IMG/VR virus record: IMGVR_UViG_3300025889_001106
Coordinates: 1 to 21,500 of that record
Source: a virus
Reading direction: 5' to 3' (one strand)
Length of the DNA stretch: 21,500 nt
The notes below the pieces were generated by a model. The model was given only the letters and a program-made list of their open reading frames with translations. It was not told where the DNA came from and made no database searches. A program made the translations under genes and the position numbers. Positions 7,063-15,621 of this stretch are shown here, in pieces (position 1 is the stretch's first letter; every line of letters begins with the position of its first letter).

Positions 7063-7182
7063 ATGGGTTTAACAACAAGCACTAGTTTAAGCGAATTATA
7101 TACAAAAAGATTTGCAAAAGGCCGATATAAAAATATGGGCAAAGGTAAATCTTACACAAAGAAAAAACGTAAAAAAAAATAA
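7063..7182 (+). CDS. Small basic protein (39 residues)
   Basis: The ATG at 7063 and the TAA at 7180-7182 define 39 residues. It starts MGLTTSTSLSELYTKRFAKG and ends in a run of Lys/Arg. The next gene starts immediately after its stop, and a hairpin lies directly upstream. Basic tails of this type bind nucleic acid nonspecifically. It has no strong SD, so confidence rests on tiling and on the resemblance to the other short basic proteins of this operon. Confidence 0.45.
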   Translation: MGLTTSTSLSELYTKRFAKGRYKNMGKGKSYTKKKRKKK

Positions 7183-7509
7183 ATGCCTCAACCACCACGA
7201 CAAATTGTTCTTGGTCATAGGAAAATAAAAATACATAGGTGGACTGCGCAAACTGCGACAAGACATAACGCCTATGGAGAGTTTGAATCTTCTAAAGATA
7301 AAATATCAATTAATAGAACATTAAAACCAAAAGTAATGGCTAATACTTTATTGCATGAAATAATGCATCTTATTGCTGACCATTATCACTGGGAAATACC
7401 ACTTAAAGATGAAGAACGGATATGCGAAACTACAGGAAATGCTTTAAGTGATCTTTTTTCGCAAAACCCTAAACTACTTGATTTTTTATATAATTCATTT
7501 ATTGAATAG
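7183..7509 (+). CDS. Phage zinc metallopeptidase (HExxH)
   Basis: The 108-residue protein contains the zincin signature H58-E59-I-M-H62 in LLHEIMHLIADH. A downstream acidic helix (DEERICETTGN, about 76-86) offers a third zinc ligand, E78 or E82. The N-terminal part forms beta strands (QIVLGHRKIKIHRW, KISINRTLKP), as in the small SprT/ImmA-like metallopeptidases common in phages. The likely role is cleavage of a host or phage protein; the target is unknown. The gene abuts the 39-residue gene (0 bases) and is followed two bases later by the ParB-like gene. Confidence 0.7.
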   Translation: MPQPPRQIVLGHRKIKIHRWTAQTATRHNAYGEFESSKDKISINRTLKPKVMANTLLHEIMHLIADHYHWEIPLKDEERICETTGNALSDLFSQNPKLLDFLYNSFIE

Positions 7510-7511
7510 AC

Positions 7512-8135
7512 ATGAAGGTAGAAATAATTGAAATTGGTAAATTAGTACCATACGAAAACAATCCTAGAAAAAATCTAAACGTAGATAAAGTTGCAAAGTC
7601 TATTCAGGAATTTGGTTTTCAACAACCAATAGTAACTGACAAGGATATGAAAATTTTAGTCGGTCACACAAGATATTTTGCAAGTAAAAAATTAAACCTA
7701 GATAAGGTCCCAGTAGTGATAGCTGACCTGGATTCAAGCAAAGCAAAAGCATATCGTATAGCTGACAATAGAGTTGCACAAGATAGTTCATGGGATTTAC
7801 CTAAATTAAATTTAGAAATAGCTTCTTTAAAAGAAGATAATTTTAATATTGATATTTTGGGTTTTGAAGATTTGGAATTAGACAAATTTGCCGGTAGAGC
7901 AGATCCAGTTTTTGAAGCATCTAATGAAGTTGTAGAAAATATAAATTATCAAGAATTAGATGCACCAATTTCAGGCGTTAGAATGATACAATTATTTTTA
8001 GATCAACAAACAGAACCAAAATTTAAACAAATGGTTGATTTTTTTAAGAAGGAATATAATACAGAAAATTTAACCGACACAGTATATTCAATAGTAGAAA
8101 ATGCATATAATAAACGTCAAACCAATTCTAACTGA
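7512..8135 (+). CDS. ParB/sulfiredoxin-fold DNA-binding or nuclease protein
   Basis: This encodes 207 residues. The first 90 follow the ParB N-terminal domain: IEIGKLVPYENNPRKN (6-21), VAKSIQEFGFQQPIV (27-41), VGHTRYFASKKL (50-61, the GHxR box) and YRIADNR (81-87). The phage members of this fold are often found beside DNA methyltransferases or base-modification genes and may act as nucleases, nucleotide-binding enzymes or DNA guides. No methyltransferase domain is fused here. The C-terminal 75 residues include GVRMIQLFLDQQTEPKF and a helical region ending at the stop. The TET/JBP gene starts 35 bases inside this one, so the two are likely coupled. Its role in the cassette is inferred. Confidence 0.78.
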   Translation: MKVEIIEIGKLVPYENNPRKNLNVDKVAKSIQEFGFQQPIVTDKDMKILVGHTRYFASKKLNLDKVPVVIADLDSSKAKAYRIADNRVAQDSSWDLPKLNLEIASLKEDNFNIDILGFEDLELDKFAGRADPVFEASNEVVENINYQELDAPISGVRMIQLFLDQQTEPKFKQMVDFFKKEYNTENLTDTVYSIVENAYNKRQTNSN

Positions 8136-9012
8136 CGAAGAAATTAAAAATTTAGAGGGAAAATATTTAGATGATTCTCACATTAAACATTTAATAAATA
8201 AAGATACAATTGTTTACAATGAGAATGGTGAGCCCATTTTAGTCCTAATAAAAAACTGCGTACCAAGTAATATTGCTAAAGATGCATATTATTCTTTAAG
8301 GAAAGCCGCATCTAAAACAAATAATAGAGGAGTTGCCGCCGGTGAATTGCCAAAAGATTTAAAAGTTGGAGATAAATGGGAGGGTTTTACTGTTGGTAAA
8401 ATCGCAAATGGAAGAGCATATCGTTTAAAAAAAGATGGAACAATTTCTAATAGCCCAGTAGCTAAAGCAGTTGAATCAGGAATTATAGGTTATGCAGATA
8501 GATATCCTAGAATACCTTATTGCCGAACCACTGCATTCACTGAAAAAAATTTTGATGAATACAAAAAATCAGTTCCATACATTCAATTAATTTCTAAACT
8601 TTTTCAAAAGTATTTACCGGAGCGTTACAATAATCAATTAGCTAAATACAATGAAACTCACGAAGATTTTAAAATAAAAAATACAGTATTTACCACAGTA
8701 ACCGTAAATAGAAATTTTAGAACTGCCGCACACTATGATGCCGGTGATTTGCCTGAAGGTTTTGGTAATTTAGGAGTTTTATCTACAGGAAAATACAAAG
8801 GTGGATATACTGTTATTCCCAGGTATGGTGTAGCAGTAGATGTGCAAAATTGTGATCTAGCTTTGTTTGATGTACATGAATTACACGGTAATACCGAATT
8901 AATATCTAGCGAACCATTTGAAAGAATATCAGTTGTTGCTTATTTTAGAAAAAAAATGGTAAATTGCGGTAGTGCAAAAGAGGAATTAGAATTAGCTAAA
9001 AGTAAATTATAA
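8101..9012 (+). CDS. TET/JBP-family 2-oxoglutarate/Fe(II) DNA dioxygenase
   Basis: This encodes 303 residues. The catalytic half reads TTVTVNRNFRTAAHYDAGD (about 198-216) with H211-x-D213 as iron ligands, then FGNLGVL, GGYTVIP, YGVAV, LALFDVHELHGN with H259 or H262 as the distal iron ligand, and ERISVVAYF with R275 to hold 2-oxoglutarate. These are the hallmarks of the TET/JBP oxygenases, which hydroxylate the 5-methyl of pyrimidines in DNA. The H259-R275 spacing of 16 equals that recalled for kinetoplastid JBP1. The N-terminal 190 residues are a separate region with no recognised motif. No cytosine-5 methyltransferase is visible in the window, which favours thymine (giving 5-hydroxymethyluracil) over 5-methylcytosine, but one may lie outside. 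Its TAA shares one base with the next ATG. Confidence 0.83.
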   Translation: MHIINVKPILTDEEIKNLEGKYLDDSHIKHLINKDTIVYNENGEPILVLIKNCVPSNIAKDAYYSLRKAASKTNNRGVAAGELPKDLKVGDKWEGFTVGKIANGRAYRLKKDGTISNSPVAKAVESGIIGYADRYPRIPYCRTTAFTEKNFDEYKKSVPYIQLISKLFQKYLPERYNNQLAKYNETHEDFKIKNTVFTTVTVNRNFRTAAHYDAGDLPEGFGNLGVLSTGKYKGGYTVIPRYGVAVDVQNCDLALFDVHELHGNTELISSEPFERISVVAYFRKKMVNCGSAKEELELAKSKL

Positions 9013-9656
9013 TGTGCGGTGTTGTCGGTGCATATTCAAAAAACGGAGTTAAAATTAATAAATTTAAAGAATTATTGAAACAAGCTAGGATTAGAGGTTT
9101 GCACGCCTGTGGTATTGCTTATATTAATAACAATAAATTAGTAAGTAAAATTATCACAAATTCAATAGATGAATTAGAATTAAATAATATTAATACAAAT
9201 TATATAATAGGACATACTAGATATAGCACATCAAATTTAAAATTTAATCAACCAATTTATGATAAAAATTTAGCAATAGTTCACAATGGTGTGATAAGTC
9301 AAATCAATCCAAAAGAATGGAAAAATATATATAAATATAATTTTACAACAGAGAATGATAGTGAAATACTTTTAAGGGATATACAAAATAATAAACACCC
9401 ATTAAATAGAAAAGGATCTATCGCAAGCATCGTTTTAGCAATCAATAAAAATATAGAATTTTATTTTTTTAGAAATGAAACTAGACCATTATACTATAGT
9501 TTTGATGAAGATTTATATATTGCTAGTACCAAAGATATTTTGGAAAGATCAAATATTAAAAATATTATTAAAACAAAAAGTTGTATTGAATATAAATTAG
9601 TAAACGAAAAAATACAAACCAACACAATAAGAAAATGCGAAGGAGATTTACAATGA
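9012..9656 (+). CDS. Stand-alone class II glutamine amidotransferase domain
   Basis: This encodes 214 residues and starts Met-Cys-Gly, with C2 as the N-terminal nucleophile after Met removal, which fixes the start codon. Further Ntn-hydrolase motifs are R28-G29-x2-ACGIA (like RGPDDSG), I66-G67-H68-T69-R70-Y71-S72, H91-N92-G93 and ENDSE (114-118). It matches the glutaminase domain of GlmS, PurF and asparagine synthetase, but no synthase domain is attached. Free-standing domains of this type supply ammonia to a partner enzyme. Here the coupled amidoligase is the obvious partner. The ATGA overlap and the amidoligase SD inside its last codons tie the two genes. Base composition around 9301-9360 is very AT-rich. 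Confidence 0.85.
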   Translation: MCGVVGAYSKNGVKINKFKELLKQARIRGLHACGIAYINNNKLVSKIITNSIDELELNNINTNYIIGHTRYSTSNLKFNQPIYDKNLAIVHNGVISQINPKEWKNIYKYNFTTENDSEILLRDIQNNKHPLNRKGSIASIVLAINKNIEFYFFRNETRPLYYSFDEDLYIASTKDILERSNIKNIIKTKSCIEYKLVNEKIQTNTIRKCEGDLQ

Positions 9657-10522
9657 TTGATTTATCTAAATGTACTTGGGGTTATGAAATTGAATGGGGT
9701 GATATAAATAGAAATATTAAAATTCCTGAAGAATTAGGTTCATGGGAATATGCTGAAACAGATATTATAAATATAAATGAACCATATAAATATATAGCTT
9801 GCGATCCTTTAGGTTTAGAACCAAAATTTGGTGGCGAGATAAATACTAAACCAACTAAAAGTTGGAATCAACAAATAACAAATATTTTTAAATTACATGA
9901 TATTTTTTTAAAAGAGGGAAACAAACCTACGGCGGGTTGTGTAAATCATGGTCATTTACATGTTCATATCCCAGGACTTAAAGATAATATTGAATGTTTA
10001 AAAAAATTAATAAAATATATTAAACAATATCAAAAATTAATTGTAGATGTTTGTTATCAATATTACGATTATCCCAATATAAAAAAACACAAAGGAAAAA
10101 TGTATTTGAAATATGATGGCGGCAGATTAATGCCTGATTATATGTGTGATAATATTATTAATCTAGCAACTGATTTTGATAGCTTTATAAAACTACATTG
10201 TGCAGGAAAAGATGGTATTTCAATGGGCAGACCATTTAGGTATGCAATTAATACTTATTGTTTAAAACATACTAATACTATTGAATTTAGATGTTTTAGA
10301 TCAACTATTAAAAAAGAAGAAATTATTGATCAATTTAAATTTGTAGAAAAATTTTTAGAATGTGCATTTTTTACTAATCAACCAATACATGAAATATTCC
10401 AAGCAAATGATTATAAATTTCCTAAATTTTATTTTGACGAAAAAGAATTTAGTGGTTGGATTAAAACTAAATATCCTAAAGAACGAGGAACAAAAAAAAG
10501 ACAATTTTATGAAGCTAATTAA
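9653..10522 (+). CDS. Glutamine-synthetase-fold amidoligase
   Basis: The start is the ATG at 9653, with AGGAG at 9641-9645; this gives 289 residues. Motifs follow the phage/bacterial amidoligase (COOH-NH2 ligase) family: G10-Y-E12-I-E14-W, an F-G-G-E62-I-N segment, GCVNHGHLHVHI with H101, H103 and H105, and TIEFRCFRST with E211 and R213. The family makes amide bonds between carboxylates and amines using ATP, through an acyl phosphate; the E/H positions bind Mg-ATP. Paired with the upstream glutaminase it could form an amide on an amino acid or base-linked acid. The predicted product is unknown, and the substrate could be free or DNA-bound. It overlaps its neighbours by 4 and 14 bases. Confidence 0.8.
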   Translation: MIDLSKCTWGYEIEWGDINRNIKIPEELGSWEYAETDIININEPYKYIACDPLGLEPKFGGEINTKPTKSWNQQITNIFKLHDIFLKEGNKPTAGCVNHGHLHVHIPGLKDNIECLKKLIKYIKQYQKLIVDVCYQYYDYPNIKKHKGKMYLKYDGGRLMPDYMCDNIINLATDFDSFIKLHCAGKDGISMGRPFRYAINTYCLKHTNTIEFRCFRSTIKKEEIIDQFKFVEKFLECAFFTNQPIHEIFQANDYKFPKFYFDEKEFSGWIKTKYPKERGTKKRQFYEAN

Positions 10523-11015
10523 ATGTTCAGAAATTTTATTTAAACAACATGTAACAGATAATAAAGCAGATAAATTTGCAAAAACATTTATAGCAAAAGC
10601 TAATTTACAATCACAATGGGATAATTGTTATGGCCTATTTGAAAATGATCTACTAGGTGCTATGATTGTTACTTTTAGCAAAAGAGAACCAAAAACAGCT
10701 AATTTACAATTACTTCACACATTTGCAAAACATAGAGGAAAAAAAATTGGTTCATATCTTATGAATTATTCTTTACATCTTTCAATTCAAAACAAATGTA
10801 AATATTACAGAGTTTCAGCAGAACCTGAAGCAATTAATTTTTATAAAAAAATAGGATTGCGTATGCTTGGTGAACAAAAATCAAAATGTCAATTAAGTAT
10901 GTTTAAAATTGTAGATGAAAATTTTTTTAATGGTAATTATGATTTAAACGATAGTCATATTAAAAAAGCCATTTATAAAAAAGGTAAGGGCGGTTGCGTT
11001 AAAATTTTTAAATAA
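10509..11015 (+). CDS. GNAT-family acetyltransferase
   Basis: I start it at the ATG at 10509, giving 168 residues; longer forms run inside the amidoligase gene. The acetyl-CoA loop is HRGKKIGSYL (75-84, R/Q-x-x-G-x-G/A type), followed by an alpha helix and the conserved C-terminal strand AINFYKKIGLRML (108-120), which is motif B. An N-terminal helix region and a beta-rich segment (GAMIVTF) complete the fold. It probably acylates an amine on the modification product, the amidoligase substrate or a small molecule. A Lys/Gly-rich tail (KKGKGGCVKIFK) may bind DNA. The TAA overlaps the next ATG by one base. Confidence 0.78.
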   Translation: MKLIKCSEILFKQHVTDNKADKFAKTFIAKANLQSQWDNCYGLFENDLLGAMIVTFSKREPKTANLQLLHTFAKHRGKKIGSYLMNYSLHLSIQNKCKYYRVSAEPEAINFYKKIGLRMLGEQKSKCQLSMFKIVDENFFNGNYDLNDSHIKKAIYKKGKGGCVKIFK

Positions 11016-11977
11016 TGGACTTTAGAAAAGCAGAAAATAGGAGAGAGGGTTTTATTCAATGGTATGCTTGGTCCTTACAAAACAAAGATTGTGATCCAGC
11101 TATTTGGTTATTGAATTATTTGTTTAATAGATTTGAACACAATATAGAGCAAAAATATTGGATAGCTTGGTTATACGGCACAACTTATTATTTACCCACA
11201 GCTTGGATTATATGGAATGAATTTCCTGACTTTGAATTAGTTGATATTGAGAGATTAACTGAATGGAATAATGTTAATTATAAAAGATTACGTTATCAAA
11301 CAGATACTAAATATAATAAAGGTTTTTTACCACAACAATTTGTTAGCTATAAACATTGGGTGTTGCACAATAACAACAACGGCACACAAAAACATAGATT
11401 TGACGAACTAACAAAACATAATGCTTTTCTCAATGTATGGAACTCAATAACTAAAAACCTATACAAATTCGGTAGATATTCTACATGGTTTTATATGCAA
11501 ACTCTACATGAATGTGTTGGAGTTAATTTATTCCCGGATAACCTTAAATTAGATGATTATAGCGGTAGCCGTTCACATAGAAATGGTCTTTTGTTTGCTT
11601 TAGGTATGGACAATTACATTGATAAAAAATTATCTAAACAAATAACACAAGGCCTGGAGTATGAAGCCAAGCAAATACAGTTAGAGGTCAAAGAGAGATT
11701 TAAAGTATCTACTAATCCATATACCATGGAAACTTGTTTATGTTCTTTTAAAAAAATATTCAGAAGATCAAAGGGCAGATACTTAGGTTATTACTTAGAT
11801 AGACAAGCAGAAGAAATTAAAAAAGTAGAACAAGACAATTGGAACGGTATAGATTGGCAAGTATTTTGGGACGGCAGAAATGAAACATTACACCCTGTAC
11901 TTGCAAACAGTTATGAAATACAACCAATATTATATAATCAATTCCTAGACACAGGCAACTTTATGAGGGCAATATGA
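11015..11977 (+). CDS. Helical enzyme of the hydroxymethyl-pyrimidine hypermodification type (putative)
   Basis: This encodes 320 residues, mainly alpha-helical and rich in Trp/Tyr. Conserved-looking blocks are YWIAWLYGTTY (48-58), KFGRYSTWFYMQTLHE (151-166), SGSRSHRNGL (183-192), METCLCSFKK (238-247) and RYLGYYLDRQ (255-264). These patterns and the pairing with a P-loop kinase point to the all-helical proteins first described as alpha-glutamyl/putrescinyl-thymine pyrophosphorylases, now linked to 5-hydroxymethyl-dU DNA kinase or amino-acid:DNA transferase activity. Which of these it is cannot be decided from sequence alone, and the family call is by eye. It is coupled to the kinase by an ATGA overlap. 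Likely substrates are base-linked or nucleotide-linked pyrophosphates. Confidence 0.55.
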   Translation: MDFRKAENRREGFIQWYAWSLQNKDCDPAIWLLNYLFNRFEHNIEQKYWIAWLYGTTYYLPTAWIIWNEFPDFELVDIERLTEWNNVNYKRLRYQTDTKYNKGFLPQQFVSYKHWVLHNNNNGTQKHRFDELTKHNAFLNVWNSITKNLYKFGRYSTWFYMQTLHECVGVNLFPDNLKLDDYSGSRSHRNGLLFALGMDNYIDKKLSKQITQGLEYEAKQIQLEVKERFKVSTNPYTMETCLCSFKKIFRRSKGRYLGYYLDRQAEEIKKVEQDNWNGIDWQVFWDGRNETLHPVLANSYEIQPILYNQFLDTGNFMRAI

Positions 11978-12489
11978 AATGTGTAGCTATAGGCGGTGAA
12001 CCGGCGACAGGCAAAACAACTTTAATGCAGATAATCTATTCTAAACTTACATGGGTAGATTTTAAAATGGGACTTTTGCGAGGACACTACAACAAAGAAA
12101 AAAACCTAGCTTTACTTGGAATATATAACATAGAAGGAACCTTTGTAGGAACAGATAAGCTATCTATGGCAGTGAATAATCATTTTATTTTATTTGCTAA
12201 GGAACAAACAAAGAACATATTATTTGAAGGCGATAGATTATTTACATTGAATAATATTAATTATTTAAAAGATAAATACGATACAGATGTGTATATTTTG
12301 CAACAATCAAAAGAAATATTGCACCAAAGACATCTAAACAGAAATGACAATCAATCAGAACAATTCCTAAAGGGTAGAAAAACAAAGATAAATAATATAA
12401 TGAATAATGTAGCAGATATAAAATTTGCACAATTATTTAATATTAATGATAGCGAAAAATTAGCAAATCATATATTAAATAGTTTTTAA
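11974..12489 (+). CDS. P-loop kinase, candidate hydroxymethylpyrimidine-DNA kinase
   Basis: This encodes 171 residues. Walker A is G7-GEPATGK14-TT. NILFEGDRLF (about 81-90) has an acidic residue in the Walker B/DxD-like place. EGTFVGTDKLSMAV (48-61) is a conserved-looking segment, and the HQRHLNRNDNQSEQ region plus KGRKTK looks like an Arg/Lys-rich lid. The size fits a nucleotide or small-molecule kinase. In phages with hypermodified thymine, a P-loop kinase phosphorylates 5-hydroxymethyl-dU in DNA to give a leaving group for amine addition. That role is inferred from the TET/JBP gene and the coupled helical gene. ADP/ATP use is expected; the substrate is unproven. Confidence 0.65.
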   Translation: MKCVAIGGEPATGKTTLMQIIYSKLTWVDFKMGLLRGHYNKEKNLALLGIYNIEGTFVGTDKLSMAVNNHFILFAKEQTKNILFEGDRLFTLNNINYLKDKYDTDVYILQQSKEILHQRHLNRNDNQSEQFLKGRKTKINNIMNNVADIKFAQLFNINDSEKLANHILNSF

Positions 12490-12515
12490 CACCTTACGCA
12501 AGGGAAAATGTGGTA

Positions 12516-12851
12516 ATGAAAAAAGTCGGAAGACCAAGAATAGAACTAGATAGAGAGCAAATATTTCAATTAGCTAGATTACATTGTACAATCAAAGAGA
12601 TAGCTGACTTCTTTAAGGTAGATAGAGATACAATAGCAGATAATTATTCCGCAGAAATTAAGAAAGGTAGAGCGGACGGAAGAATAAGATTACGTAAGAA
12701 ACAATTTGACTTAGCTATGCAAGGAAATGTTACGATGTGTATATGGCTTGGTAAGCAAATATTAGAACAAAATGAAAACAATTTAGACGAAGATAATCTA
12801 CCACAACCTTTGATAATACAAGAAGATGACAACAAAACTTTTATTGTGTAA
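12516..12851 (+). CDS. Small-terminase-like HTH protein
   Basis: The start is the ATG at 12516 (111 residues), with AGGGA ten bases upstream; a GTG at 12510 is an alternative. Residues about 24-45 form a helix-turn-helix (CTIKEIADFFKVDRDTIADNY), preceded by a basic GRPR segment. A second basic helical part (KKGRADGRIRLRKKQFDLA) leads into AMQGNVTMCIWLGKQIL, a common C-terminal pattern of small terminase subunits in short marine-phage genomes. It would recognise the phage DNA for packaging. It is separated from the large terminase by five genes, which is unusual but seen in such phages. A transcriptional regulator is the alternative. Confidence 0.6.
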   Translation: MKKVGRPRIELDREQIFQLARLHCTIKEIADFFKVDRDTIADNYSAEIKKGRADGRIRLRKKQFDLAMQGNVTMCIWLGKQILEQNENNLDEDNLPQPLIIQEDDNKTFIV

Positions 12852-12860
12852 TAAATACTA

Positions 12861-13133
12861 ATGGCAAAATACAAAGGCAGAACAGTTAAATTAAACAAGC
12901 CAATGAAAGGCGATGTTAAGAAATTCAAAGTGTTTGTTAAAAATAAGAAAACCGGCAGAGTACAAAAGGTAAACTTTGGTAGCAAAACAATGTCTATTAA
13001 GAAACATATACCAGCTAGGAAACGATCATTTATGGCAAGATTTAGACCTATACTTGCAAATGTTAAAGGTCAGAAGAATTTATCCCCAGCTTATTGGGCA
13101 GTTAAATCTTGGCGTAAAGGTTTCAAAGCATGA
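12861..13133 (+). CDS. DUF5872-like small basic protein
   Basis: This encodes 90 residues. KKFKVFVKNKKTGRVQKVNFGSKTMSIKKHIPARKRSFMARF and YWAVKSW match the layout of a small phage protein family (DUF5872-like: K-F-x-V-Y-V-K-N, VNFG, M-x-I-K, RKSFRARH, YWSCKMW), as recalled from memory. The central Cys and His of most members are missing here (FRPILANVKG), so any zinc site is lost. The protein is very basic and likely binds DNA or a virion component. No SD is clear. It overlaps the next gene by an ATGA. Confidence 0.6.
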   Translation: MAKYKGRTVKLNKPMKGDVKKFKVFVKNKKTGRVQKVNFGSKTMSIKKHIPARKRSFMARFRPILANVKGQKNLSPAYWAVKSWRKGFKA

Positions 13134-13369
13134 TTAAGTTTTTTTTATTTATGCATATAATGATAGCTGATCCAAACGCAAATATTCCCAAGGTCTATGA
13201 CTTTTGGTTTGAAGATCATGAACTAAGATATTTTGCGACAGAAAAGGATTGCAAAAAAAAGGGTAATGAAATATTACAATGGGCAAGGCAATCAATGGAA
13301 GACAAAAATCTAAAAGTCATAGATACCTGGTTTGAATGTGTCGCTATTAACAAAGGTCAAAAGATATAG
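13130..13369 (+). CDS. Small protein with hydrophobic N-terminus, unknown function
   Basis: This encodes 79 residues. The first 15 (MIKFFLFMHIMIADP) are hydrophobic enough for a signal anchor or signal peptide. The rest is acidic/aromatic (VYDFWFEDHELRYFATEKDC) with a second Cys near the end in WFECVAI; the two Cys could form a disulfide if exported. It starts within the preceding gene (ATGA) and ends with a TAG that overlaps the next GTG start. The family is not recognised. An envelope role is only a guess. Confidence 0.5.
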   Translation: MIKFFLFMHIMIADPNANIPKVYDFWFEDHELRYFATEKDCKKKGNEILQWARQSMEDKNLKVIDTWFECVAINKGQKI

Positions 13370-13857
13370 TGTACACTCCCAACATTAACTTATACGATCT
13401 ATATTTAAAACAAGCTAAGTTATTACATCAAAACCCAAGCAAGTGGAGAGGCACAACACTAACTCATTACATAGAAGATATTAATGCACTAATCAAAGAT
13501 AAGCATTTAAAAACTATTTTAGATTATGGGTGCGGTAAAGCAAAGTTCCACCCCAAAGAATGGAATGCTGATAAATATGATCCAGCAGTACCGGAGTATT
13601 CAGAAAAACCTACAGGAAGATACGATCTAGTTATTTGTACTGATGTATTAGAACATATACCACAAAATCATTTAGACGAAGTTATTGAAGATATATTTAA
13701 CTATTCAGATCAATGGGTATTTATTTCTGTATGTTGTCGTAAAGCAAAAGAAATATTACCAAATGGCTATAACGCTCATGCAACTATTGAATCAACAAAA
13801 TGGTGGAAGGATAAATTTTCCAAATATACTGATTATACTCTAAAATTCTCACAATGA
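13369..13857 (+). CDS. Class I SAM-dependent methyltransferase
   Basis: This encodes 162 residues; GTG start at 13369. Motif I is ILDYGCGKAKF (about 50-60). The post-I acidic strand is represented by WNADKYDP, and the motif IV region is YDLVICTDVLEHIP (about 85-98), giving a Rossmann-type methyltransferase of the small-molecule/Methyltransf_11-23 style. It lacks the N/D-PP-Y motif of N6-adenine or N4-cytosine DNA methyltransferases and the PC motif of cytosine-5 enzymes. A sugar, lipid, protein or modified-base adduct is therefore a more likely substrate. It is coupled by an ATGA to the glycosyltransferase-like gene, suggesting the two work on the same product. Confidence 0.75.
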   Translation: MYTPNINLYDLYLKQAKLLHQNPSKWRGTTLTHYIEDINALIKDKHLKTILDYGCGKAKFHPKEWNADKYDPAVPEYSEKPTGRYDLVICTDVLEHIPQNHLDEVIEDIFNYSDQWVFISVCCRKAKEILPNGYNAHATIESTKWWKDKFSKYTDYTLKFSQ

Positions 13858-14405
13858 TTTTTCAACCAGTTGAGTACATGAACAATAAAAAACTTTTATT
13901 GATAGGTAACGCTGTTGTTACAAAAGAGCCTGACTATACAAAATTTGATTGTATTATTAGAATGAATTTAGGAGTTCAAACAAGTCCTATTGATGTATGG
14001 ATAGATAATCTAGTTAATCAAGCACATGATAGTTTAGGACATATTCCTGACATAAAAAACATAATTAGACTAAACGCTGAAAAAGATGGCAAAAGATTAG
14101 AACGAATGCCTAAGCAATTAAAACCTTATACCTGGTTATGGAATACAGAAGAATTTAGTATCATGTGTAAAGAGTTAAATTACTTTAGACCAACAACAGG
14201 ATTAATTTCTATTTATTGGATACTAAATAATATTAAATTCAAATCATTTACGATTACCGGCTATGATTTTTTTCAAACACCTAATCGTTATACTAATGAA
14301 ATACACAGCACGTCCAAAACTTATGTTTATCCTAGCCACGATATAATGAAAGATAGATACTGGATATTAAAGTGGTGGAATGAGGGTAAATATGAAATTA
14401 TCTAA
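13854..14405 (+). CDS. GT29 (sialyltransferase-like) glycosyltransferase
   Basis: This encodes 183 residues from the ATG at 13854; an internal ATG at 13878 (residue 9) is the alternative. The pattern follows family GT29: LLLIGNA (15-20, large sialylmotif-like), FDCIIRMN (31-38), RPTTG (112-116, small-motif-like), TITGYDFF (133-140) and a His in YPSHDIMKD (about 163). In the last segment the HxxxxE motif appears as HxxxxD. The enzyme would transfer a sugar from a CMP- or other nucleotide-sugar. Likely targets are a modified DNA base or a virion glycan, since it lies between the hypermodification cassette and the terminase. This is inferred from position. Confidence 0.6.
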   Translation: MIFQPVEYMNNKKLLLIGNAVVTKEPDYTKFDCIIRMNLGVQTSPIDVWIDNLVNQAHDSLGHIPDIKNIIRLNAEKDGKRLERMPKQLKPYTWLWNTEEFSIMCKELNYFRPTTGLISIYWILNNIKFKSFTITGYDFFQTPNRYTNEIHSTSKTYVYPSHDIMKDRYWILKWWNEGKYEII

Positions 14406-15621
14406 ACCACAAAAAGAAGTCTTTGATGACACCTCAAGATTTAGAGTGTTAATCACAGGAAGAAGATTCGGCAAAACCTATTTATGTATGCTTGAGTTAT
14501 TAAAGTTTGCAAGTCGTAATCCCAACGGCAAAATATTTTATGTTAGTCCTACTTACAGAATGTCAAAAGAAATCATGTGGAAAGCATTAAAAAAAATAAC
14601 GCAAGATTTGAATTGGACGAAATACACTAATGAAAGTGAATTAACATTAATTGTAAGAAACAATTGTCAGATAAGTTTAAAGGGAGCAGATAAAAGTCCT
14701 GATAATCTACGAGGTGTTGGATTAAACTTTTTATGTTTAGATGAGTTTGCTGATATTCCACAAGAGGCCTGGACAGAAGTATTAAGACCAACTGTATCTG
14801 ACAAGTATGCCAATGGTCATGTATTGTTTACCGGTACTCCTAGAGGTTTTGGTAATTGGTCATATGAGATGTTTCAAAAGGGTAAACAAAACGATAAGGA
14901 ATGGAAATCTTGGAAATTTACTACACTTGAAGGTGGTCAAGTAGAGAAATACGAAATTGAACAAGCTAAAAAAGATTTAGATTCCAGGTCATTTAGGCAA
15001 GAGTATATGGCTTCATTTGAAACCTATGCTGGTGTTGTTTATTATAACTTTGACAGGCAAAAAAATGTTCAACCAGTTAAATATGATCCTGATTCTATTA
15101 TTCATGTGGGGCTAGACTTTAACATAAATCCGATGAGTGCTTGTTTGTGTCATATTAAAAATGACGTTGTTAGCTTCTTTGATGAAATTGTTATTTATTC
15201 TAGCAATACCGAAGAATTTATACAGGAATTAATAAGTAGATATCCTAAAAATAGAATTATTGTGTATCCTGATCCAGCCGCAAGGCAACGCAAAACTAGT
15301 GCCGGTGGAAAAACAGATTTAACTATCTTGCAAAATGCCGGATTAGCTGTTAAATGTAAAGCAACTCATGCTCTCATAAGAGATAGGATTAATTCTGTGA
15401 ATAGTAGATTGTGTAACAACAATGACAAAAGATTTATTTTTATTGATCCGTCTTGTAAAAACCTTATTAATAGTTTAATGAAACAAACATACAAAGAAGG
15501 TACAAACCAACCGGAGAAAACAGGGTACGATCACATGACAGATGCTATGGGTTATTTAATAGAATACTTATTCCCTATCTCTAGTAATTTACCACCGAAA
15601 CAACCAATGAGATTTAGTTAA
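14392..15621 (+). CDS. terL: Terminase large subunit
   Basis: The ATG at 14392 has GAGGG five bases upstream and is preferred over an ATG at 14380. It gives 409 residues. The ATPase domain has Walker A ITGRRFGKT (21-29), Walker B NFLCLDEF (112-119) and the coupling motif TGTP (147-150). The nuclease domain has LDFNINP (241-247, catalytic D242), D265 in SFFDEI, and HMTDAMGY (381-388, D384). It packages DNA into proheads, hydrolysing ATP at the portal. It overlaps the end of the glycosyltransferase gene by 14 bases, and its stop shares one base with the portal ATG. Confidence 0.93.
   Translation: MKLSKPQKEVFDDTSRFRVLITGRRFGKTYLCMLELLKFASRNPNGKIFYVSPTYRMSKEIMWKALKKITQDLNWTKYTNESELTLIVRNNCQISLKGADKSPDNLRGVGLNFLCLDEFADIPQEAWTEVLRPTVSDKYANGHVLFTGTPRGFGNWSYEMFQKGKQNDKEWKSWKFTTLEGGQVEKYEIEQAKKDLDSRSFRQEYMASFETYAGVVYYNFDRQKNVQPVKYDPDSIIHVGLDFNINPMSACLCHIKNDVVSFFDEIVIYSSNTEEFIQELISRYPKNRIIVYPDPAARQRKTSAGGKTDLTILQNAGLAVKCKATHALIRDRINSVNSRLCNNNDKRFIFIDPSCKNLINSLMKQTYKEGTNQPEKTGYDHMTDAMGYLIEYLFPISSNLPPKQPMRFS

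Follow-up and report, generated by a model that had tools for sequence, protein, structure and literature searches.

A viral gene cassette predicted to hypermodify thymine in DNA after replication, with a naturally exchanged side-chain module

We analyzed a 21.5-kb window of DNA from an aquatic phage (IMG/VR record IMGVR_UViG_3300025889_001106; 30.8% GC, probably a fragment), which carries seven consecutive open reading frames (ORFs) at positions 7512-12489, all on the plus strand. Given the families of the encoded proteins and the conservation of the cassette, a single pathway hypermodifying a pyrimidine in DNA is the best reading, as a first-pass annotation of this DNA had proposed. We consider it likely from the gene content that this pathway acts on thymine, after replication. 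According to our model, a TET/JBP dioxygenase would hydroxylate thymine in the phage DNA, giving 5-hydroxymethyl-deoxyuridine (5-hmdU), a P-loop kinase would phosphorylate the hydroxymethyl group, and a helical amino acid:DNA transferase (ADDT) would displace the phosphate with a nitrogen nucleophile. The first of these steps is proposed from gene distribution, the second from the relatives of the kinase, and the third from homology and fold similarity to a solved transferase. The cassette also encodes a ParB-fold protein, a glutaminase (GAT), a ligase of the glutamine synthetase fold (AMID), and a GNAT acyltransferase; AMID and GNAT form a side-chain module that has been swapped between near-identical sister phages. 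The modified DNA should protect the phage genome from host nucleases.

The ORF check and Pfam agreed with the gene order given by the first-pass annotation. Consecutive ORFs overlap by 35, 1, 4, 14, 1, and 4 bases, given an AMID start at 9653, which is preceded by AAGGAGA, and a GNAT start at 10509. The first gene encodes the ParB-fold protein (ParB_N; 7512-8135; PF02195, 1.7e-10), a probable DNA-binding or targeting accessory, and the second the TET/JBP 2-oxoglutarate (2OG)-Fe(II) dioxygenase (8101-9012; PF12851, 1.1e-27), predicted to hydroxylate the 5-methyl group of thymine in DNA. They are followed by GAT, a stand-alone class II glutaminase and predicted source of NH3 (9012-9656; GATase_6, 4.4e-10), AMID, a carboxylate-amine ligase recognized by its modeled fold (9653-10522), and a GNAT of the AMID-linked type (10509-11015; Acetyltransf_10, 1.3e-8). 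The last two genes encode the all-helical ADDT (11015-11977; PF18724, 7.1e-20) and the P-loop kinase, a predicted 5-hmdU DNA kinase recognized by its Walker A motif and family profile (11974-12489). Profiles, folds, and invariant active-site residues upheld the family call of each of the seven proteins. The profile search placed none of them in an unrelated family, and AMID and the kinase were weak in Pfam.

TET enzymes require a 5-methylpyrimidine. To learn which base is modified, we surveyed 30 TET-ADDT phage records of 25 to 168 kb, about 2 Mb in total. Profile searches detected the C5-cytosine methylase family PF00145 in none of the 30 records and in none of 6 further ones, four of which are complete isolates. 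The thymidylate synthase (TS) family PF00303, which includes the hydroxymethylases of dUMP and dCMP, did not exceed the cut-off in any of the 30, and TET was found in all 30 by the same tool. We also compared 16 isolates carrying ADDT. A TS-type enzyme is present in all 13 that lack TET, which are known or predicted 5-hmdU phages including PaMx11, M6, PhiW-14, and Kuttervirus Det7, and the remaining three have TET. Two of these, Zemanar and Fortunato, have no TS-type enzyme; the third, Cr30, has a 373-bit thymidylate synthase match that looks ordinary, the TS-type enzymes of the other 13 scoring 42 to 87 bits. Zemanar and Cr30 each carry a P-loop kinase as well. Since TET and the TS-type enzyme are complementary across ADDT isolates and the C5 methylase is absent from the records, TET probably replaces the dUMP hydroxymethylase of M6-, ViI-, and PaMx11-type phages, making 5-hmdU inside DNA. 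Thus, the earlier call of a pyrimidine stands and can be narrowed: the gene distribution strongly indicates thymine, and this assignment is independent of whether the NH3 from GAT serves ADDT or AMID.

Two considerations weigh against thymine. Many of the records may be fragments, so that the absence of the methylase is less certain in the short ones. Moreover, the characterized phage TETs act on 5-methylcytosine, as far as Burke 2021 is cited in PMC11404850 and PMC12730594. By such a cytosine route, TET would oxidize 5-methylcytosine made by a host or unrecognized methyltransferase, and the kinase and ADDT would decorate 5-hydroxymethylcytosine. Only 3 glycosyltransferase-linked TET loci were found, too few to serve as a within-phage positive control for the C5 methylase. 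Still, no PF00145 methylase turned up in the 30 records or the 6 further ones, ADDT elsewhere accompanies TS-type enzymes and the 5-hmdU kinase, and the solved enzyme that matches ADDT uses 5-phosphomethyl-dU. We therefore rejected cytosine as the best reading and regard it as improbable.

The solved enzyme is PUGT, the 5-phosphomethyl-2'-deoxyuridine glycinyltransferase of phage PaMx11 (8z2n/8z2m). ADDT is the 320-amino-acid (aa) "helical protein" of the first-pass annotation, and its AlphaFold model (predicted local distance difference test [pLDDT], 95.6) matched PUGT with a Foldseek probability of 1.00 and a Z of 17.6 over 256 of 289 residues. Behind PUGT came chains of DNA glycosylases and of a queuine salvage enzyme, at a Z of about 10 or less (10.1 for the best unrelated chain). 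PUGT itself belongs to PF18724 (1.6e-27). The suggested role as a transferase of amino compounds is thus borne out at the level of family and fold. The kinase, weak in Pfam (AAA_18, 1.6e-3) and without a match to the Pfam HMUDK models, was recognized by phrog_800 (7e-11). Its family profile matched Zemanar gp4 (PF18751) at 1.9e-19 and PaMx11 gp49 at 3e-7, and its conserved core comprises the Walker A motif GEPATGKTT and FEGDR. In Zemanar and PaMx11, proteins labeled "terminase small subunit" are P-loop kinases adjoining ADDT (L085:2875-3462 and L249:19218-19784 in our locus collection), with matches to PF18751 at 3e-71 and to AAA_33/HMUDK-like models, respectively. Both probably act as 5-hmdU DNA kinases. 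In Rhodoferax phage P26218, too, a protein so labeled stands beside ADDT (L260:4783-5361).

In the TET protein, H211, D213, H262, and R275 are invariant among 36 relatives; they correspond to the HxD...H iron ligands and the 2OG-binding Arg and align with the HxD and distal H/R motifs of TET2. The ParB protein matched phrog_620 at 1e-45, the ParB-like N terminus of the phrog_498 DNA methyltransferases at 3e-37, and the N terminus of a PADLOC Type II MTase at 2e-31, and it probably helps to direct the enzymes to DNA. By TET, the nearest isolate is Pelagibacter phage HTVC112P (64% in TET, 53% in the large terminase), in which ParB also lies directly upstream of TET. That phage has ParB-TET-FkbM methyltransferase (L082:6973-9195) and lacks the rest of the cassette. 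A ParB gene adjoining TET is confined to the pelagiphage-like loci; most of the others carry either another gene that is weakly ParB-like or no such gene. With no ADDT, the HTVC112P genes may make a 5-hydroxymethyl pyrimidine that is O-methylated, which would be a further decoration based on this TET. Several public labels of TET/JBP proteins differ from this family assignment. phrog_6059 is labeled queuine tRNA-ribosyltransferase, which looks wrong because the window TET matches it and Zemanar gp2 (L085:785-1756) matches Tet_JBP. Proteins of Cr30 (L084:7410-8738), DLP_6 (L263:5443-6789), and S-CBWM1 (L264:3729-5165) are annotated as SNF2 DNA repair, and the HTVC112P TET (L082:7599-8507) as DnaJ/SNF2.

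GAT retains an invariant C2, R70, N92-G93, and D116, that is, the catalytic Cys after Met, the glutamine-binding Arg and Asp, and the oxyanion Asn-Gly, and it matched the glutaminase domains of PurF and GlmS in the PDB at 1e-9 to 1e-7. Searched by sequence, the AMID and ADDT profiles gave nothing useful against the PDB, and the matches of both came from folds alone. For AMID, whose profile match was weak (Amidoligase_2, E 0.057), an AlphaFold model was built with 35 relatives (pLDDT 93.6). Nearly all of its top Foldseek rows were glutamine synthetase, glutamate-cysteine ligase, YbdK, and PafA, and the model matched glutamine synthetase and glutamate-cysteine ligase folds with a VIA Z of 9 to 10 over some 180 to 230 residues. 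Residues E18, E20, E68, H107, H109, R202, E217, and R219 (numbering from 9635) are invariant. Among isolates, AMID had one distant match (26%), in phage Simon, with no other cassette genes nearby; the scan of bacterial genomes yielded one short contig from an Actinomycetota metagenome-assembled genome, probably viral.

Relatives of the cassette were gathered into 242 loci, most of them from three IMG/VR scans, and their ORFs were clustered. Since a locus entered the collection through its TET, ADDT, or AMID, the gene counts are conditional on that choice. The near-universal core consists of TET (199 loci), GAT (184), ADDT (184), the kinase (177), and a GNAT-type gene (176), with AMID present in 120. 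We reduced the collection to 80 non-redundant cassettes with ADDT below 90% identity, in which TET-GAT-ADDT-kinase is near-constant. Because the same genes recur in near-same order in most of these 80 viral loci, the gene set recurs far above chance.

Three layouts dominate the non-redundant cassettes. Layout A is TET-GAT-GNAT'-ADDT-kinase. Layout B, that of the window, is TET-GAT-AMID-GNAT-ADDT-kinase, often with a 437-aa gene before ADDT. In layout C (L024:12066-14539, L036, L052, and L077), a divergent AMID occurs with a low-molecular-weight phosphatase (PF01451) that replaces GNAT. The type of GNAT and the presence of AMID were almost strictly paired: the AMID-linked GNAT was accompanied by AMID in 42 of 42 non-redundant loci, and the overall split was 42:0 against 2:25 (Fisher p 8e-17, with no correction for ancestry). 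At about 30% identity, the two GNAT types are only distantly related. On the ADDT tree, the cassette switched between layouts A and B 10 to 11 times, at least 7 of which are forced by well-supported branches. The layout has therefore been exchanged repeatedly, with the GNAT type following the amidoligase. Many layout B loci have the 437-aa gene (F9; L198:3865-5175 and relatives) between GNAT and ADDT; it matches ParB_N weakly and may correspond to the ParB that precedes TET in pelagiphage-like loci. Layout C often includes one more gene, about 370 aa long and glycosyltransferase-like by eye.

One such exchange can be seen directly by comparing the window with two sister phages (L002 and L018). 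Their DNA is mostly 91 to 100% identical over about 7122-9000, with a dip near 8300-8500. Identity falls to 59 to 78% in GAT, no alignment is found over 9557-11000, and 98 to 99.7% identity resumes over 11001-15614. In the gap, a single gene for a 203-aa GNAT' (Acetyltransf_1, 7e-4) replaces AMID and GNAT. The swapped segment (9012-11000, plus strand) thus holds GAT, AMID, and GNAT in the window and GAT' with this one GNAT in the sisters, with junctions near the TET/GAT and GNAT/ADDT borders. AMID and GNAT are a swappable side-chain module, exchanged naturally between near-identical phages. The first-pass annotation had counted glutaminase, amidoligase, and GNAT as parts of one pathway; they remain so, with AMID and GNAT as the exchangeable part and GAT as a near-constant one.

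We infer the order of the GAT, AMID, and GNAT steps and the final side chain as follows. GAT would free NH3 from glutamine, and this NH3 may serve the ADDT step, giving 5-aminomethyl-dU directly in DNA, rather than the amidoligase alone. We lean to NH3 as the ADDT nucleophile because roughly one-third of the cassettes have no amidoligase yet retain GAT, because the GAT family had no match in four isolates and two short contigs with a divergent ADDT or none, and because GAT occupies the position that the flavin adenine dinucleotide (FAD) enzyme has in PaMx11. In layout B, the ligase would then join a carboxylate, such as that of an amino acid, to the amine at the expense of ATP, and GNAT would acylate the product; in layout A, GNAT' would act directly on the aminomethyl base. 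The outcome would be a thymine bearing an amide or a peptide, built on a TET product. We offer this scheme, in which an exchangeable module sets the end group, only tentatively. GAT as an obligatory partner of the amidoligase is unlikely, as it persists without AMID.

One result tells against this use of NH3. In the swap described above, GAT changed along with AMID and GNAT, whereas ADDT remained 99% identical; this argues against a close GAT-ADDT partnership and is as expected if GAT serves AMID. For the model as a whole, a caution is that ADDT and PUGT share only about 13% identity despite their common family and fold, so that the donor could differ. A quite plausible alternative, to which we give somewhat less than even weight, keeps the thymine pathway and has ADDT load an amino acid (for example, glycine or glutamate), as PUGT does, after which AMID and GAT would amidate its carboxylate in the manner of glutamine synthetase and glutaminase and GNAT would cap the amine. 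PUGT loads glycine (PDB title), the AMID fold is equally close to glutamine synthetase, an ammonia user, and the joint exchange of GAT with AMID and GNAT fits as well; the GAT of the amidoligase-free cassettes, however, would be partnerless. Across other pairs of loci, we saw no trend either way in the movement of GAT with the module. We did not retain the idea that GAT always moves with it, which has one recent swap and no general trend behind it.

It is very improbable that the cassette modifies no DNA at all, with GAT, the amidoligase, and GNAT merely lying beside TET and working on a peptide or an amino acid, either making it or joining it to proteins or metabolites. LUZ24-like phages have GAT/amidoligase/ATP-grasp clusters for which such a role has been proposed; LUZ24 itself has GAT, a COOH-NH2 ligase, an amidoligase, RimK, and a gamma-glutamyl cyclotransferase with no TET or ADDT nearby. 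In our cassette, by contrast, TET and ADDT flank the module, with overlapping frames, an arrangement that recurs in most of the 80 non-redundant loci, and RimK and cyclotransferase genes are not among the window cassette ORFs.

Between the cassette and the terminase, the window also encodes a small class I methyltransferase (13369-13857) and a 183-aa protein (13854-14405), which among the fetched loci are present solely in the window and L018. PADLOC reported no defense system in the window, its lone match being the ParB-like N terminus of a methyltransferase model.

If correct, our model describes a thymine-specific phage TET/JBP pathway, parallel to that of trypanosome base J, whose first step takes place in finished DNA instead of the nucleotide pool. 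The cassette occurs widely among viruses of fresh and marine water, and no isolate with it was found in a phage isolate collection of tens of thousands of records; a common class of viral DNA chemistry is therefore uncultured. The swappable module provides natural experiments that link genes to side chains. Its enzymes may offer new means of labeling DNA at T, and it allows a test of which host defenses drive side-chain turnover.

Among known systems, that of PaMx11 (PUGT gp46, FAD enzyme gp47, GNAT gp48, kinase gp49, and TS-type enzyme gp51) shares with the window an ADDT of the PF18724 family and fold, a P-loop kinase, and a GNAT, and a 5-phosphomethyl-dU intermediate is predicted to be common to both. 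The PaMx11 pathway reportedly yields N-glycyl-thymidine first, followed by 5-aminomethyl-dU and the acetylated form of the latter. Unlike PaMx11, the window has TET in place of the TS-type enzyme, with oxidation predicted after replication, and GAT and AMID in the place of the FAD enzyme. M6, Salmonella ViI-type phages, and PhiW-14 proceed from 5-hmdU through a DNA kinase to an alkylamine (amino-group) transferase (PMC6449724), the same logic as proposed here, and ADDT occurs in M6, Det7, and PhiW-14; these phages, however, carry a TS-type enzyme and lack TET. Coopervirus mycobacteriophages such as Zemanar carry a consecutive ParB-like gp1, TET gp2, ADDT gp3, and P-loop kinase gp4, and Cooper gp2 has already been listed as TET/JBP (PMC12730594). 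In contrast to the window, Zemanar has a divergent ADDT, no GAT family match genome-wide, and neither AMID nor GNAT within the block. The phage systems of TET-based cytosine hypermodification, as far as they are described from Burke 2021, likewise use Tet_JBP to make a hydroxymethyl handle, but decorate it by glycosyltransferases and use a C5 methylase; here, a kinase and ADDT take over, and the methylase was not found in the records surveyed. Nonlabens phage P12024L has TET with a TET-associated glycosyltransferase. The peptide clusters of LUZ24 type differ by their RimK ATP-grasp and gamma-glutamyl cyclotransferase genes. Pathways from TET/JBP products have been predicted in computational surveys (Iyer 2013, as cited in PMC6449724). 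Because no TS-type dUMP hydroxymethylase exceeded the cut-off in the 30 records, we regard the cassette, known here from genes and models, as a candidate new variant of thymidine hypermodification and not as a member of the M6/ViI/PaMx11-type 5-hmdU pathway.

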